Source of the DNA: Corynebacterium crudilactis
GTDB lineage: Bacteria > Actinomycetota > Actinomycetes > Mycobacteriales > Mycobacteriaceae
Length of the DNA: 64,000 nt
Direction: 5' to 3'
NCBI RefSeq assembly: GCF_001643015.1
Contig: NZ_CP015622.1
Location: 695,358 to 759,357 of the forward strand
Shown here: positions 49,469 to 57,413 of the stretch, one piece after another
Layout: the number at the start of each line of letters is the position of its first letter
How positions within the stretch are numbered: position 1 is the stretch's first letter
Program-made: the position numbers and the translations under genes
The notes under the pieces: generated by a model
The model's input: only the letters and a program-made list of their open reading frames with translations
Told to the model about the DNA's origin: nothing
Database searches by the model: none

Positions 49469-50755
49469 CTAGTTAAACAAGTGACCGCGCAGCGTAGTGT
49501 GGCTGTATTCTGTGCGGAATCGACCACGTCGCTGCAGCTCAGGGACTACTAAGTCAACAAAGTCGTCCAAACTGTGGGGGAGCATCGGTGGCATGAGGTT
49601 GAAGCCATCGGCACCGCCCTCGTCGATCCAGCGCTCGATTTCATCAGCGATGCTTTCCGGTGTGCCGATGAATGTGGCGTGCCCACCACCTGCTGCGAGG
49701 TAGCCCAGAAGTTCACGGACGGTTGGTGATTTAGATTCGATGATCCGCAGCACCGTTTCGTACCTGCCTTTAGGACCGGAAAACTCTTCTAGCGGTGGCA
49801 GTGGTGGGGGAGGTGCATCCAAATCCCACGTCGAGCAATCTTGCCCCACAAAGAAACTCAACTGATTTAGTGAGTCTTTGACCGGCAACAACGCGTTGAG
49901 AGCCTGCTGTTTTGCACGCGCTTCTTCCACGGTCGTGCCAACAAAGGTCACCAAACCAGGCAGCACCGGCATGGGTTCGCGACCCTGGGCAGTGGCACGA
50001 GCATGAATATCAGAGCGATAATCTTGTGCTTGCTCCAAATCCCAGGCCACGGAGTAAATCGCCTCGGCATACCGTGCAGCGATCTCCCGTCCCTGCGGTG
50101 AGGATCCCGCTTGGAAAATAACTGGCCTGCCCTGCGGAGTAGTGGGAATATTCAGCGGACCAGCGACTTGGAAGAACTCACCATCATGATGGATAGATTC
50201 AATGAGTGAGGAGTCCGCAAATTTTCCAGCACGATCCATCACCAAACTTTCCGCGGGCCACGAATTCCACAGCGCAGTGATGGTTTCAATAAATTCCGCA
50301 GCGCGCGCATAGCGAACATCATGACCCGGCAACGCATCCATCCCGTGGTTACGCGCCTCCGCATCAGTCATCGAAGTCACCACATTGATTCCAGCACGCC
50401 CACCTGAAATATGATCCAAGCTGGCGATCATCCGCGCTGCATGAAACGGCTGCCAAAACGTACTGGAAATCGTGCTGATCAACCCAATATTGTTCGTCGC
50501 CCGCGCCATCGCAGTCAACGCGGTCACCGGCTCCAAAAACCAGCCCGGCCCATTCTCCAGACCGACGGGATTAATCGCCTGCCCATCCGCCAAAAAGACC
50601 GCATCCAGCTTGCCCCGCTCAGCGGTGCGCGCGAGTTCCTCCCACCAGGAAATTAAACCCAGCTTTTCGACGCTTCCCTCCACCGCTCGCCACGCCGCCG
50701 CGTGGTGCCCGGCACCGAAAGCAAAAAGGTTGAGGTGTATTTCTTTCGGTGTCAT
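49469..50755 (-). CDS. FMN-dependent monooxygenase (NtaA/SnaA/DszA family)
   Basis: A 428-residue TIM-barrel flavin monooxygenase of the bacterial-luciferase superfamily, using reduced FMN from a separate reductase. The start KEIHLNLFAFGAGHHAAAWR, SGGRAGINVVTSMTDAEARN, GRPVIFQAGSSPQGREIAAR and the C-terminal FIGTPESIADEIERWIDEGG are hallmarks of the NtaA/DszA group acting on amines or sulfur heterocycles. It is the second gene of an operon with the SDR gene (overlap of one base) behind a TPP riboswitch. A role in salvage or breakdown of a thiamine-related heterocycle is a reasonable inference; the substrate is not known. Confidence 0.88.
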   Translation of the reverse strand: MTPKEIHLNLFAFGAGHHAAAWRAVEGSVEKLGLISWWEELARTAERGKLDAVFLADGQAINPVGLENGPGWFLEPVTALTAMARATNNIGLISTISSTFWQPFHAARMIASLDHISGGRAGINVVTSMTDAEARNHGMDALPGHDVRYARAAEFIETITALWNSWPAESLVMDRAGKFADSSLIESIHHDGEFFQVAGPLNIPTTPQGRPVIFQAGSSPQGREIAARYAEAIYSVAWDLEQAQDYRSDIHARATAQGREPMPVLPGLVTFVGTTVEEARAKQQALNALLPVKDSLNQLSFFVGQDCSTWDLDAPPPPLPPLEEFSGPKGRYETVLRIIESKSPTVRELLGYLAAGGGHATFIGTPESIADEIERWIDEGGADGFNLMPPMLPHSLDDFVDLVVPELQRRGRFRTEYSHTTLRGHLFN

Positions 50756-51510
50756 TAGTTGAAAACCAGTCCTCCGTCGACGACCAAGTTTTGGCCTGTA
50801 ACCGCGCGCGACCAGGGGGATGCGAAGAAGAGGGAGGCGTCGGCAAGCTCTTGCGGCGTGGTGACGGACCCCAGTGGGGTGCCGGCGGCGATGAAATCAA
50901 AGACTTCCTCGGGCGTGGCGGCGCTGGCGCCGGTGGTGCGCAGCAGGCCGCCGCTGACCATGTTGACCGTGATGTGGCGTGGGCCCAAATCCTTGGCAAA
51001 CGTGCGAGTCAAGGACAGCAGCGCAGCCTTCGCAGCGGTGTAATCGTGGTAGGGGACCGTCGGATTCTGGAAAAGATTCGTGCCGATGTTAATCACACGA
51101 CCACTTCCCACCTCCTCAAAACCAGGTAAAGCCTCCTGGATGGTGTTTAGCGCGCCCGCGATTGCGCTGGTGTACTGCTGGTTAAATCGCTCAATGGTGA
51201 TGTCCTCCGCCTTGGGACGCGCATCGCCATCAAAGCTGAAATCCGCCAAAGCGCTGTTGACCACAGTGGTGATCGGGCTGCCGAAATGTTCCTTGGCCTG
51301 CGCAAACATGCTTTTCACCTGTTCGCGATCACGAACATCAGCCTGAATCGCCACCGCCTTTTCACCAGCCAACTCTGCGGCAGCATCAGCCGAACGGTGA
51401 TAGTTCACCACAACACGAGCGCCCTCGCGCAAAAATGATTCAGACAATGCGCGACCAAGTCCGCGTGCACCGCCGGTGACCAAAACAATTTGCTCAGAAA
51501 TATCAAGCAT
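50755..51510 (-). CDS. Short-chain dehydrogenase/reductase under TPP riboswitch
   Basis: A 251-residue SDR enzyme. The cofactor motif is TGGARGLGRALSESFL at residue 12 and the catalytic Tyr/Lys are in PYHDYTAAKAAL; NVVSGGLLRTTGAS is the usual substrate-loop start. The annotation 3-oxoacyl-ACP reductase (FabG) is a generic guess. It is the first gene after the TPP riboswitch, and its ATG is immediately downstream of a hairpin whose 3' arm contains the only good ribosome-binding site. Control by thiamine pyrophosphate suggests a role in thiamine metabolism or precursor salvage. Confidence 0.88.
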   Translation of the reverse strand: MLDISEQIVLVTGGARGLGRALSESFLREGARVVVNYHRSADAAAELAGEKAVAIQADVRDREQVKSMFAQAKEHFGSPITTVVNSALADFSFDGDARPKAEDITIERFNQQYTSAIAGALNTIQEALPGFEEVGSGRVINIGTNLFQNPTVPYHDYTAAKAALLSLTRTFAKDLGPRHITVNMVSGGLLRTTGASAATPEEVFDFIAAGTPLGSVTTPQELADASLFFASPWSRAVTGQNLVVDGGLVFN

Positions 51511-51544
51511 GAAAAAACGCCCTTCTTGGGTTGGGGCGAAGGGC
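51511..51544 (-). terminator. Riboswitch expression platform: terminator/SD-sequestering hairpin
   Basis: Read on the minus strand, GCCCTTC pairs with GAAGGGC and is followed by GTTTTTTC and then directly the SDR ATG. The AGAAGGG of the 3' arm is also the Shine-Dalgarno sequence. The same stem could stop transcription or hide the ribosome site when TPP is bound. Confidence 0.7.
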
Positions 51545-51582
51545 AGAGGGACCTATCCCTTGGGAGGATGGGTCCAATGCGA

Positions 51583-51675
51583 CAGTCCCTTCGCCAGTAC
51601 TAACTGGATCAGGTTCGACGGGTGTAATCTCAGCGAAAGCTTTGTGAAAGTGCTTTTGCACCCCGTGTCACTAGT
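51583..51675 (-). promoter_or_regulatory. TPP riboswitch (THI element)
   Basis: On the minus strand the conserved thi-box parts appear in order: GGGGTGC, a variable stem (GCACTTTCACAAAGC), GCTGAGA, ACCCG, GAACCTGATC and AGTTAGTACTGGCGAAGGGA. These form the TPP-binding three-way junction. It lies in the leader of the SDR-monooxygenase operon. Confidence 0.92.
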
Positions 51676-53572: not shown

Positions 53573-54409
53573 CTAGGCTTTCACGCCACCTGCGGTGAGT
53601 CCGGAGACGATGCGGCGTTGGAAGATGAGAACCATGATGATCAGTGGGATGGTCACCAATGCGCCGGCCGCCATGACCGAGGCGTAGGGGTATTCGAAGG
53701 AGCTTGGTCCGGTAAACCTGGCGATCGCAACGGTTACTGGCTCTGTGGAGGTGTTGGATAGTTGGCGGGCCAGCATGAATTCGTTCCACGTTGCGATGAA
53801 TGCGAGGATCGCGGTGGTAAATAGTGCAGGCGCTGCTAGAGGAAGCAGGATCATCCGGAAGGCTTGGCCACGGGTGGCGCCGTCGACGCGTGCTGATTCT
53901 TCGAGTTCCCAGGGCAGTTGTCTGAAGAAGGACACGAGTGTGTAGATCGTCAGAGGTAGTGCGAAGGAAATGTTCGGGATAATCAGCGCTTGGTAGGTGC
54001 CGATCCAATTGAGGTCACCGAAGAGCTGGAACAAAGGCGTGACCAGGGCGATGCCGGGGAACATGGAGGCTGCCAAGATGATGCCGGTGACAATGCCTTT
54101 GCCGGGGAATTCCAGTCGGGCTAGAGCGTAGGCGGTGAACACTCCCACGAGAACAGCGATCGCTGTTGTCGTGACACTGATGATCAGCGAGTTGCCAATG
54201 GCTGCGAGGAAGTTATTGCCTTTGTCGGTGGCCAGCGCGTCACGGAAGTTATCCAAAGTGACGTGCGTTGGCCAAGGAGTGGTGTCAAAGGTGTGCTTGG
54301 AATCGCGTAGTGCGGTGATCACCATCCAGTAGAAGGGGGCTAGACCCCAGAACAGGATGAATACCACTCCGGCGTAGTTGAGGATAAGTCCTTTTGTTCG
54401 TTTAGTCAT
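53573..54409 (-). CDS. tusG: Trehalose ABC importer permease
   Basis: A 278-residue MalG-type permease with six membrane helices. The cytoplasmic EAA loop reads EESARVDGATRGQAFRMILL, with the conserved G facing the ATPase. It forms a heterodimer with the product of 54406-55440 and imports trehalose, as known for C. glutamicum TusFGK-E; substrate assignment relies on synteny. ATG and the upstream stop overlap (ATGA), so the two permeases are co-translated. Confidence 0.88.
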   Translation of the reverse strand: MTKRTKGLILNYAGVVFILFWGLAPFYWMVITALRDSKHTFDTTPWPTHVTLDNFRDALATDKGNNFLAAIGNSLIISVTTTAIAVLVGVFTAYALARLEFPGKGIVTGIILAASMFPGIALVTPLFQLFGDLNWIGTYQALIIPNISFALPLTIYTLVSFFRQLPWELEESARVDGATRGQAFRMILLPLAAPALFTTAILAFIATWNEFMLARQLSNTSTEPVTVAIARFTGPSSFEYPYASVMAAGALVTIPLIIMVLIFQRRIVSGLTAGGVKA

Positions 54410-55440
54410 GGCTTAGCCACTTCCTTCACAGCAGAATCGGCCTTTACAACAGCATCCTTAGCGGTGGGTTTCTCATACTTGGTTCCGCCCAGTTTCTTTT
54501 TCTTCATCCCTCGTTGGCCCGAAACGTCTGCTCCGAGGAACCGGATCATGATGAACGCCACGAAGAAGATCAGTAGGAAGATCAGCGTAGAGAGTGCGGA
54601 TGCGGAGTTGAAGTTGTTTTGGCGCATGTCTTCCACAACCAGCTGGGAGATAACAGCGGTGGGGGAGTTGGAGGAACTGGAGATCATGATGACGGGGAGG
54701 TCGTACATGCGTAGTGCATCGAGGGTACGGAAGAGTACTGCCACCATCAAAGCTGGGCGCACCAGCGGGAGGGTGATCTTGGTGAATTGCTGCCACGCGG
54801 TTGCGCCATCGACGCGGGCTGCTTCGTAGGTTTCCTTCGGGATCATTTGCAGACCGGCGAGGATAAGTAGCGCCATGAATGGTGTGGTTTTCCAGACGTC
54901 GGCCAAAATGACGGCGGCTCTGGCGGCCCACGGATCGGTTGTCCAACTGATACTAAGCCCAAACATGGAGTTGATGATGCCTTGTGGCGCGAAGATGAAC
55001 TGCCACAGTTTTGCGGTGACTGCGGTGGGGATTGCCCAAGGGATAAGAATCGCTGCGCGAACAAGTGCGCGGCCGCGGAATTCTTTGTTCATGATCAGTG
55101 CCATGGCGGTGCCGAGGATGGTTTCCAAGCCGACGGTGACCACGGTGAAGAACAACGTGATGCGTAGTGCTGGCCAGAAGTCGGTGGCGAGTGTGCCGGG
55201 TGGGCAGGTACGGATGGTGCCGTCTGAACCCATGCATCGTTGGGTGAGCCAGTAAAGGTAGTTGTCTAGTCCTGCGAAGCCACCGTCGGTGAAGAGTCCT
55301 GTGGTGGGGTCGAGGCCTTTGTCGGCCTGGAAGGATAGCCAAATTGCTCGGACGATGGGATATCCGATCACCACTGCAAGGACCACCAGCGCAGGTGCGA
55401 TCAGCCAGGCAGCGCTTCTGGCCTGTTTGAATGTGGCCAT
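54406..55440 (-). CDS. tusF: Trehalose ABC importer permease
   Basis: A 344-residue MalF-type permease with a long N-terminal periplasmic loop and about six to seven membrane helices. The EAA loop is EAARVDGATAWQQFTKITLP. The C-terminal extension is Lys-rich (KKKKLGGTKYEKPTAKDA) and longer than usual. It precedes tusG with a four-base overlap. From gene order it is the TusF permease. The clean start is MATFKQARSAAW at 55440. Confidence 0.88.
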   Translation of the reverse strand: MATFKQARSAAWLIAPALVVLAVVIGYPIVRAIWLSFQADKGLDPTTGLFTDGGFAGLDNYLYWLTQRCMGSDGTIRTCPPGTLATDFWPALRITLFFTVVTVGLETILGTAMALIMNKEFRGRALVRAAILIPWAIPTAVTAKLWQFIFAPQGIINSMFGLSISWTTDPWAARAAVILADVWKTTPFMALLILAGLQMIPKETYEAARVDGATAWQQFTKITLPLVRPALMVAVLFRTLDALRMYDLPVIMISSSSNSPTAVISQLVVEDMRQNNFNSASALSTLIFLLIFFVAFIMIRFLGADVSGQRGMKKKKLGGTKYEKPTAKDAVVKADSAVKEVAKP

Positions 55441-55551
55441 GTGTCGTCGCTCCTTTTGTCAGGTCAAAATAAGTTGATTGTCAGTTCTGTGAAACTGCAC
55501 AGTCTTGTTACATGGATCATAATCCGCCGCGGAGAGTGATGGATACATTGG

Positions 55552-56007
55552 CTATTGCTTATAAAACCCGTCGCGGAGGTTCACTCCGTATTCCAGCCAC
55601 GCTTTTAATGCAGAGAGCATGCCGGTCCATCCCATTTGGCTGCCTAGGGCCTCTTGGGCTCCCGCGGGGGTGAGTGGCCAGCTACCTTCGGTGATGGTGA
55701 GTTTTGTGCGGGTGAAATCTCTAAAAGGTTCGAATTCGAAATTGACGGAACGCAGCTCATTTGCTTGTCCCCAGCGGATTTCAATTTGTTTGGCTTGGGT
55801 AGCGGAGACAACTTGGACGGGAAACGCGCCGGGAAAATCAGCGAAGTCCCAATAGACAGTCGATCCGGTTTCGAGTCGGCCAGATACCCCGCCGGTGGCG
55901 AAGTAGCGTTCTAGTTGTCGGGGATCTGCGATTGCTTCGTAGACCTGCACGGGGCAGCGGGAAATGTAGCCAAATGTGGAAACTTGAAGATCTTTGCTGG
56001 AAGCCAT
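55552..56007 (-). CDS. SRPBCC/AHSA1-like protein
   Basis: A 151-residue protein of the START/Bet v1-like fold: VSTFGYISRCPVQVYEAIAD, DPRQLERYFATGGVSGRLET with the AHSA1-like start, VYWDFADFPGAFPV, and the C-terminal GWTGMLSALKAWLEYG. These proteins bind small hydrophobic ligands; the function here is unknown. It lies between tusE and tusF, 111 bp upstream of tusF in the same direction, and is separated from tusE by a terminator. AAAGGAG supports the start at 56007. Confidence 0.82.
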   Translation of the reverse strand: MASSKDLQVSTFGYISRCPVQVYEAIADPRQLERYFATGGVSGRLETGSTVYWDFADFPGAFPVQVVSATQAKQIEIRWGQANELRSVNFEFEPFRDFTRTKLTITEGSWPLTPAGAQEALGSQMGWTGMLSALKAWLEYGVNLRDGFYKQ

Positions 56008-56055
56008 CCGGACTCCTTTCACACAAGTTCAATTACACCCAACAATAGGACAAAA

Positions 56056-56106
56056 CTCCGGCCACCTCGCGGGAATCCGAACAGGATTTCAAGAAGGTGG
56101 CCGGAG
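56056..56106 (-). terminator. Terminator of tusE
   Basis: CTCCGGCCACCT (56056-56067) pairs perfectly with AGGTGGCCGGAG (56095-56106). Read leftward a TTTT run follows. It ends the tusE transcript before the SRPBCC gene. Confidence 0.8.
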
Positions 56107-56138
56107 CGCAAACCTAAAGCATAAACCTTAAAGCCGAA

Positions 56139-57413
56139 CTAGCTGGAAGCGTTTTCGATCGCTGCCTTCATGTCGGTGGTTGCCTGGTCAACATCGACGT
56201 TGCCGTTAAGGGCTGCGTAAGCGTTGTCCTGGATTGCCTTGGAGATGGCTGGATAGAAAGGAGACACTGGGCGTGGTGCTGCGTTTTCCAGGGATTCCTT
56301 CAGTGCTGGCAGGTATGGGTACTGCTCAACCAGTGATGCGTCATCGTAGATGGATGCGAGCACTGGTGGGAAGGAGTTGTCTGCGAACCAGGTCTGGTTT
56401 TCTTCGTTGATGATGAATTCAATGAAGTCGCGGGCGGTTGCCTTGTTTTCGGAGTTGACGTTGATGCCGTTGTTGTAGCCACCGAGGGTGGATACGCCGA
56501 CGCCGTCTTTACCTACGAGTGGCTGTACTTCGAATTTGCCTGCGGTTGCTTCGGCTTCTTCGGAGTTGGTGTACATGTATGGCCAGTTGATGGCGTAGGC
56601 GGTTTGGCCTTCGGTGAAGGCGAGGTTGGTTTCTTCCTCGGTCGCTGCAAGCGATGCCTGGGAGATGGTGCCGTCGTCGAAGCCGTCGACCATTGCCTGG
56701 ATGCCGGCCTTGGAATCGTCGCTGTCGACGGTGACGTTGCCGGAATCGTCTAGGACGCTGCCGCCCCAGCCTTCGATGAAGCCAATGGTGTTAACGGAAA
56801 GGCCTTCGTACTGCTTGAGCTGCGTAGTCAGGCAGTCAACGCCGGCTTCCTCAGCAAGCGTGCAGGAATCAACGAGGTCAGCCCAGTTTGCGGGTGCTTC
56901 TGGGATGATTTCGGTGTTGCGGAACAGCAGCTGGCCGTTGGTGTTCTGAGGCAGTGCGTAGAGGGTGCCGTTGTAAGTTGCGGAATCCACGGTGGATTGC
57001 AGCAGTCCGGAGGTGTCTACCTCGAGGTCGCCTTCAAGTGGTGCGAGCCATTGGTTTGCCGCGAAGTCTGCGGTCCAGATGACGTCGAGCGCCATGACGT
57101 CGTAGTCAGAGTTGCCGGCCTGCAGGGATTGCACGAGGGTTTCGCGCTGTGCGTCGGCTTCACCGGCGAGTTCGTTGAGCGTGACCTGCTCATCGGGGTG
57201 GGCTTCGTTCCAGCGGTCGATGATCGGAATGACTTTGTCGGTGTCGTTTTTGCCCATCGCAAAAGTGATGGGGCCGCGGCTGTCTGCGCCTTCGCTGGCG
57301 GTGGAATCTGTGGAGTCGGAGCTTGAGTCTGAACTACAACCGGCCAGTGCGATCGCTGCCAACAGTGTGGTGGCTGCAAGCGACGCGCCGGTCTTGCGGG
57401 AAATCGAGGACAT
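56139..57413 (-). CDS. tusE: Trehalose ABC importer substrate-binding lipoprotein
   Basis: A 424-residue lipoprotein of the MalE-like cluster. The signal peptide ends at ALAGC, with the Cys lipidated, followed by a Ser/Asp-rich linker. VIPIIDRWNEAHPDEQVTLN starts the binding domain, with MALDVIWTADFAANQWLAPL and AYAINWPYMYTNSEEAEATA further on. It delivers trehalose to TusFG; the assignment comes from gene order and family. It has its own terminator and follows tusK on the same strand. Confidence 0.88.
   Translation of the reverse strand: MSSISRKTGASLAATTLLAAIALAGCSSDSSSDSTDSTASEGADSRGPITFAMGKNDTDKVIPIIDRWNEAHPDEQVTLNELAGEADAQRETLVQSLQAGNSDYDVMALDVIWTADFAANQWLAPLEGDLEVDTSGLLQSTVDSATYNGTLYALPQNTNGQLLFRNTEIIPEAPANWADLVDSCTLAEEAGVDCLTTQLKQYEGLSVNTIGFIEGWGGSVLDDSGNVTVDSDDSKAGIQAMVDGFDDGTISQASLAATEEETNLAFTEGQTAYAINWPYMYTNSEEAEATAGKFEVQPLVGKDGVGVSTLGGYNNGINVNSENKATARDFIEFIINEENQTWFADNSFPPVLASIYDDASLVEQYPYLPALKESLENAAPRPVSPFYPAISKAIQDNAYAALNGNVDVDQATTDMKAAIENASS

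Follow-up and report, generated by a model that had tools for sequence, protein, structure and literature searches.

A TPP riboswitch upstream of an SDR and FMN-dependent monooxygenase gene pair with a probable role in thiamine-precursor salvage

What does a pair of redox genes do behind a TPP riboswitch? The window, by which we mean the whole 64-kb stretch of Corynebacterium crudilactis DNA analysed here, holds a single Rfam match above the gathering score (cmscan, 4227 families), to the TPP family RF00059, and this match stands before an SDR gene and a monooxygenase gene. The original prediction had read a thi-box here from its motifs, and all five of them (GGGGTGC, GCTGAGA, ACCCG, GAACCTGATC and GCGAAGGGA) do follow one another in this order on the minus strand. 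The covariance model that it had proposed as a check also matches, over its full length:

51568-51675, minus strand: TPP riboswitch aptamer (RF00059), cmscan 67.3 bits against a cut-off of 54.3, E 4.8e-11, full model 1-105
50755-51510, minus strand: SDR oxidoreductase, 251 aa, NF006393/PRK08642 at 444.6 bits against a cut-off of 292
49469-50755, minus strand: NtaA/DmoA-family FMN-dependent monooxygenase (LLM), 428 aa, TIGR03860 at 503.8 bits against a cut-off of 279.7

The SDR and LLM genes share one base (TAATG), which bears out the overlap claimed for them, and the TIGR03860 score agrees with the predicted NtaA/DszA-type monooxygenase; the two are presumably read as one transcript. The gene downstream of the pair is convergent and thioesterase-like. 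Elsewhere in the window, 53573-57413 is occupied by sugar-type ABC transporter genes (two permeases and a solute-binding protein) with an AHSA1-family gene in between.

That the riboswitch at such an SDR gene is undescribed is not supported: a TPP riboswitch element before an SDR gene is of an already known kind. For C. glutamicum cg0825, the part of PMC3890552 that deals with this gene lists an RF00059 element at 742,654-742,547 with a short-chain oxidoreductase downstream, gives a 5' UTR by RNA-seq of 162 nt (742,651-742,490), and already suggests a role in thiamine-dependent processes; a second 2013 paper on C. glutamicum, in its part on the gene, also reports the cg0825 TPP riboswitch (PMC4046766). 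The 162-nt length of that leader equals 51672-51511 in the window if the two are aligned on the aptamer start, and we took the SDR as the counterpart of cg0825 from its riboswitch, leader length and annotation.

Classical SDR enzymes carry the motifs TGxxxGxG and YxxxK and a catalytic Ser. In the SDR of the window, T12-G13...G17-L18-G19 and the YxxxK residues Tyr157 and Lys161 are present, and the usual place of the Ser is taken by Thr144, which is invariant in an 18-row alignment. Its predicted structure, with a mean pLDDT of 77.5 and stretches around the active site below 50, was too weak to build on. The NCBIfam entry NF006393 calls it a 3-oxoacyl-ACP reductase, which appears to be a name only. 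The LLM scores above the TIGR03860 subfamily cut-off and has the family fold, and an FMNH2/O2-dependent oxidation is predicted for it at the family level; its relatives NtaA, EmoA, DszA and CmoJ carry out oxidative cleavage of C-N or C-S bonds. No thi family is found among the listed Pfam and NCBIfam matches of either protein, the NCBIfam list of the SDR covering its 25 best matches out of 226.

The connection between riboswitch and gene pair is tight across the genus. In the set of 201 Corynebacterium genomes, LLM relatives at E <=1e-90 turn up at 26 loci, spread over 22 genomes, and at 19 of these loci an SDR gene (69-100% identity) lies directly upstream. A TPP element above the gathering score accompanies every one of the 19, as against none of the seven LLM loci of the genus that lack an adjacent SDR. 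This conservation across the 201 genomes, together with the covariance E-value, rules out a chance match to the aptamer. The LLM by itself was likewise rejected as the partner of the riboswitch, as a TPP element is carried by none of the seven SDR-less paralogues of the genus and none of eight more distant loci (L031-L038, from the 28 in the set L031-L058). The TPP scan, which did not extend to L027 and in which L005 and L077 are one locus, as are L006 and L187, gave no element at L009, L010, L012, L014, L016, L017 or L020.

In a tree of 73 LLM sequences (32 SDR-linked and two linked to an alcohol dehydrogenase, ADH), the label linked or unlinked changes twice, against 24.6 times in shuffles. 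The linked clade also encloses, as nested members, five Corynebacterium paralogues that are unlinked (L093-L097). Three residues set the linked enzymes apart: M129 (34/34 linked LLMs, 0/5 nested paralogues, 0/34 others), Y234 (34/34, 0/5 and 1/34) and F325 (34/34, 0/5 and 1/34), and these are candidate substrate-pocket residues. The nested paralogues, with no adjacent SDR or TPP element and with altered residues at 129, 234 and 325, have likely undergone a change of function.

The arrangement is not confined to Corynebacterium. TPP element, SDR and LLM occur together in Kocuria, Brachybacterium and genome G160, and plasmid-borne copies are found in Rhodococcus, Pseudochrobactrum (Alphaproteobacteria) and Mesobacillus (Bacillota). 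A further plasmid copy, in Exiguobacterium acetylicum (L062:6803-7877), has its TPP element and SDR intact and its LLM in two frames, and is apparently a decaying one. In the order of Kocuria, LLM genes at E <=1e-140 are present in 10 of 297 genomes, eight with an SDR and two with a zinc alcohol dehydrogenase; the TPP element is directly upstream in seven of the eight SDR-LLM genomes, Kocuria among them, and in the eighth, G1050, it stands before thiM, farther upstream in the same gene row. A zinc alcohol dehydrogenase replaces the SDR beside the LLM at L008:4979-7278 and L197:6531-8842, and this exchange argues for alcohol or aldehyde chemistry. Exceptions exist: the SDR has neither a TPP element nor an adjacent LLM in Caballeronia (L059) and in G074 (L067), and in G067 (L068) it has the TPP element and no adjacent LLM. 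On the Pseudochrobactrum plasmid, L026:3861-3996 matches the model of the Brucella sRNA CI153 at 76.3 bits, under its gathering score of 137.

Several of these loci are embedded among thiamine genes. In G1050 the order is TPP element (66.7 bits), thiM, thiE, SDR, LLM, and thiD faces this operon behind a second TPP match, which at 53.8 bits is just below the cut-off. On plasmids of three Alphaproteobacteria (Neorhizobium, Gemmobacter and Rhizobium) the TPP element is followed by thiM, thiE, thiD and, as the last gene, the SDR. In Kineococcus, a TPP match of 53.3 bits, also just below the cut-off, precedes thiO, thiG, thiF, the zinc ADH and the LLM; the palindrome between thiF and the ADH contains one N, so that a join error is possible there. 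Genome G935, however, shows the ADH-LLM arrangement a second time; the TPP match there, at the start of the ADH, is weak (33.5 bits, E 0.005). The link to thiamine metabolism that had been predicted is strengthened by these independent neighbourhoods in other phyla. A pair found behind TPP elements and inside thi clusters of distant bacteria likely recovers a building block of vitamin B1; membership in thiamine metabolism, with precursor salvage as the task, is the most likely reading of the gene contexts, and we hold it very probable that SDR and LLM form a thiamine-precursor salvage module.

Two other readings bear on the same distribution. The enzymes could be common redox enzymes with no part in thiamine metabolism, whose place behind a TPP riboswitch is a coincidence; their generic family names and the SDR genes without TPP at L059 and L067 would suit this. 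Set against the 19/19 versus 0/7 TPP linkage in the genus and the thi operons in unrelated bacteria, this is very unlikely. Alternatively, they could remove a toxic or damaged thiamine analogue, such as an antivitamin or oxidised thiamine, and be expressed at low TPP. Several members of the family degrade xenobiotics, and the distribution of the pair is patchy and partly plasmid-borne, but a place inside thiM-thiE and thiM-thiE-thiD operons fits supply better, and we regard analogue removal as quite unlikely.

How would the riboswitch act on the pair? The leader of the SDR gene contains the following elements:

51587-51595, minus strand: aptamer 3' arm GGCGAAGGG, upstream strand of an antiterminator and exact 9-nt complement of 51535-51543
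51550-51575, minus strand: linker hairpin in the interval from aptamer to switch, from the MFE fold
51535-51543, minus strand: switching strand CCCTTCGCC, complementary to the aptamer arm and, as GCCCTTC (51538-51544), to the Shine-Dalgarno arm
51519-51544, minus strand: terminator-like hairpin GCCCTTC/GAAGGGC, arms 51544-51538 and 51525-51519
51512-51517, minus strand: run of six T 3' of the hairpin, read from the sequence

The pairing of GGCGAAGGG with CCCTTCGCC (51595-51587 with 51543-51535) and that of GCCCTTC with GAAGGGC are mutually exclusive, and sequence and fold together give an expression platform, in 5' UTR position, that excludes and is excluded by the aptamer. In the free fold the bases of the terminator-like hairpin are paired at 0.96-1.00, and the hairpin fold has an energy of -55.2 kcal/mol against -52.9 kcal/mol for the forced antiterminated fold. 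Shuffled controls put the whole leader at z -2.4 (6 of 200 fold equally well); a match to the aptamer as good as the 9-nt one arises in 0.3% of shuffled linkers, and a match to the linker as good as the 7-nt one in 0.4% of shuffled Shine-Dalgarno regions. The 3' arm GAAGGGC (51519-51525) doubles as the likely Shine-Dalgarno site, 8 bases before the ATG, and T's follow it, which supports the earlier idea of one stem acting on both transcription and translation. The hairpin, the G and the six T (51517-51512) are as had been described; they do not lie directly before the ATG at 51510, one C intervening. A pattern-based terminator scan does not list the hairpin, because the scanner accepts loops of up to 8 and this one has 12, and a promoter scan lists nothing just upstream of the leader.

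It is plausible that this leader is a TPP-off switch, the direction being read from the competing pairings. In the TPP-bound state the 3' arm would stay within the aptamer, and the linker strand would be available for closing the hairpin; the closed hairpin would then stop transcription, block translation, or both. The SDR-LLM operon is thus likely switched off by TPP. Of the two roles originally offered, a salvage or a degradation step, the latter is the less likely, because with a switch of this type expression would be expected at low TPP.

Comparison of leaders suggests that the switch is not uniform. Of 32 leaders, three without a start codon and L026, with a wrong start, were left out. 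In ten of the 28 scored, all from Corynebacterium, the aptamer-arm match has p<0.02, and a CCTTCGCC-type strand is found 28-33 bases before the ATG; the other 18 miss this threshold, some having shorter matches at a similar place. The ribosome site is mostly GAAAGG without a T-run, except in the nearest relatives of the window (L075 and L076), and in the Mesobacillus and Exiguobacterium leaders a stem with a T-run lies farther upstream of the start. Given such varied ribosome sites, T-runs and stems, differing expression platforms seem to serve one gene pair. In G067 (L068:7123-7215) the SDR start falls inside the 3' end of the aptamer match, and the aptamer's own GGAGGGA may serve as ribosome site there.

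Which thiamine precursor might be salvaged? The genome of the window has four TPP elements above threshold, placed before the SDR-LLM pair, before thiM and a ThiE-ThiD fusion gene, before thiE-thiO-thiG, and before an ABC transporter made up of a PF09819 component (which we take to be YkoE-type), an ATPase and a CbiQ-type permease. The end of the ThiE-ThiD fusion resembles TenA (98.6 bits, the TenA cut-off being 130). The genome encodes ThiG, ThiO, ThiE, ThiM and the ThiE-ThiD fusion, and no ThiC match was found in it, whereas the C. glutamicum control gives one (thiC there is cg1476, in the part of PMC3890552 that names it). With ThiG and ThiO and without ThiC it should need pyrimidine from outside, and it is predicted to be a pyrimidine (HMP) auxotroph.

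The same combination is frequent among carriers of the pair. We counted ThiG as present at E 7.5e-37 or better and as absent at E 1.8e-8 or weaker, or with no match. Of the thiG-positive Corynebacterium genomes, 11 of the 18 with the pair lack thiC, against 18 of the 142 without it (Fisher p 1.5e-5); across all 201 genomes the figures are 12 of 19 against 51 of 182 (p 0.003). Of the 19 carriers, seven have thiC and 18 have ThiG; 11 have ThiG without full-length ThiC. Raw counts this strong might be taken as proof of a pyrimidine role; we rejected them as such and let them count for a lean at most, since they fail the tree control and the association is absent in a second order. A ThiG tree was built from 87 of the 160 thiG-positive genomes (all 18 carriers, 17 of 18 thiC-less genomes without the pair, G781 being left out, and 52 hand-picked from 124 with thiC and without the pair; the G704 row is partial), and it yielded only four independent pairs on well-supported branches, with no direction and a median p of 1. 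In the order of Kocuria, 46 of 297 genomes have a thiC match, one of which is a 45-residue fragment in G1136, and two of the ten genomes with the LLM have full-length thiC, as do 43 of the remaining 287, which shows no association (p 0.65); counting the fragment as thiC gives 3 of 10 carriers and p 0.19. Of the 13 carriers outside Corynebacterium, which include G067 with TPP and SDR only and the ADH-LLM genomes G876 and G935, eight are thiG-positive without full-length thiC, two have both genes and three neither. By the chosen cut, 7 of 201 Corynebacterium genomes have thiC and no ThiG, and G686, G736, G751 and G763 give two thiC matches each, the second partial in G686 and G736.

These counts bear on whether the pair might make the pyrimidine in place of ThiC. 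If the thiamine pyrimidine were made without ThiC, in an oxygen-dependent way, from a precursor that is imported or already in the cell, this would accord with the carriers that have ThiG without full-length ThiC (11/19 in Corynebacterium, 8/13 elsewhere) and with a repressing switch like those before biosynthetic genes. Yet thiC is also present in seven Corynebacterium carriers, in Kocuria and in G1115, the thiC association goes under phylogenetic control and is absent in the second order, and building a ring with only two enzymes would be a short route, so we find such synthesis rather unlikely. With thiC in 7 of 19 Corynebacterium carriers, the pair does not just stand in for ThiC. In the related form in which a TPP-controlled LLM, together with either SDR or zinc ADH as an exchangeable dehydrogenase, provides an O2- and flavin-dependent route from an imported or cellular precursor to HMP without ThiC, the idea is unlikely; if it were true, thiazole-making bacteria that lost ThiC could complete vitamin B1.

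For salvage of an existing precursor, we lean towards the pyrimidine side of thiamine, favouring an HMP-type compound since the genome of the window keeps thiazole synthesis and is without thiC. A pyrimidine-aldehyde chemistry, to which we give somewhat less than an even chance, would have the LLM oxidise a thiamine-related pyrimidine compound at the bridging carbon to an aldehyde, and the SDR reduce this aldehyde to the alcohol HMP, for ThiD. In this scheme it is conjectural that the two enzymes act one after the other, that the SDR works in the reducing direction and that the substrate is a pyrimidine. We count against it the Kineococcus LLM in a thiazole operon, the SDR genes lacking TPP and adjacent LLM (L059 and L067) or lacking the adjacent LLM only (L068), the 18 of 28 scored leaders that miss the threshold for the aptamer-arm match, and the 3-oxoacyl-ACP reductase name that NCBIfam gives the SDR.

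The Kineococcus locus, with LLM and ADH behind thiO-thiG-thiF, points instead to the thiazole side, where the substrate of the LLM would be a modified thiazole or thiazolium, and hydroxyethylthiazole would be restored by the dehydrogenase for ThiM. The position of the SDR after thiM in the thiM-containing operons agrees with this, as do the relatives DszA, DmoA and CmoJ, which act on organosulfur compounds. However, most carriers can probably make thiazole themselves, since ThiG is kept by 18 of the 19 in Corynebacterium and by 10 of the 13 elsewhere, and in the three Alphaproteobacteria the gene immediately before the SDR is thiD, which encodes HMP kinase. Thiazole-side salvage is therefore doubtful in our view, and pyrimidine salvage is the reading that we carry forward.

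As far as our literature searches reach, the SDR-LLM enzyme module is an undescribed variant of the TPP regulon. At title and abstract level, the matches listed contain no SDR-LLM pair in thiamine metabolism. The work of Rodionov (JBC, 2002) reportedly names THI-regulated oxidoreductase genes, possibly including an SDR of the cg0825 type. The words "monooxygenase", "oxidoreductase", "short-chain" and "dehydrogenase" do not occur in the main text of the TPP-regulon paper PMC3766115. A module under TPP riboswitches in three phyla, and within thi operons, points to a missing salvage step of vitamin B1. If this is true, many database entries named "3-oxoacyl-ACP reductase" or "LLM class oxidoreductase" would have to be corrected, and so would predictions about the dependence of bacteria on one another for B1 precursors.

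Four known systems place the locus. In the cg0825 system of C. glutamicum, element and downstream gene are of the kinds seen in the window, but the cg0825 parts of its accounts (PMC3890552 and PMC4046766) are without the monooxygenase, the switch strands, the other phyla and the thi-operon neighbourhoods. The SDR resembles PRK08642 (NF006393) well above the cut-off of that model, whereas its gene neighbourhood speaks for thiamine metabolism, unlike the acyl-ACP name. Members of the NtaA/DmoA family, namely NtaA, EmoA, DszA/BdsA, CmoJ/YtnJ, DmoA and the riboflavin lyase RcaE (TIGR03860), share about 30-40% identity with the LLM of the window, and the linked clade differs from them by its own residues M129, Y234 and F325. 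The thiMED operon of rhizobia, a salvage operon, has an orthologue of the SDR as its fourth gene in Neorhizobium, Gemmobacter and Rhizobium; no LLM adjoins the SDR there, whereas the pair in the window has a riboswitch of its own.
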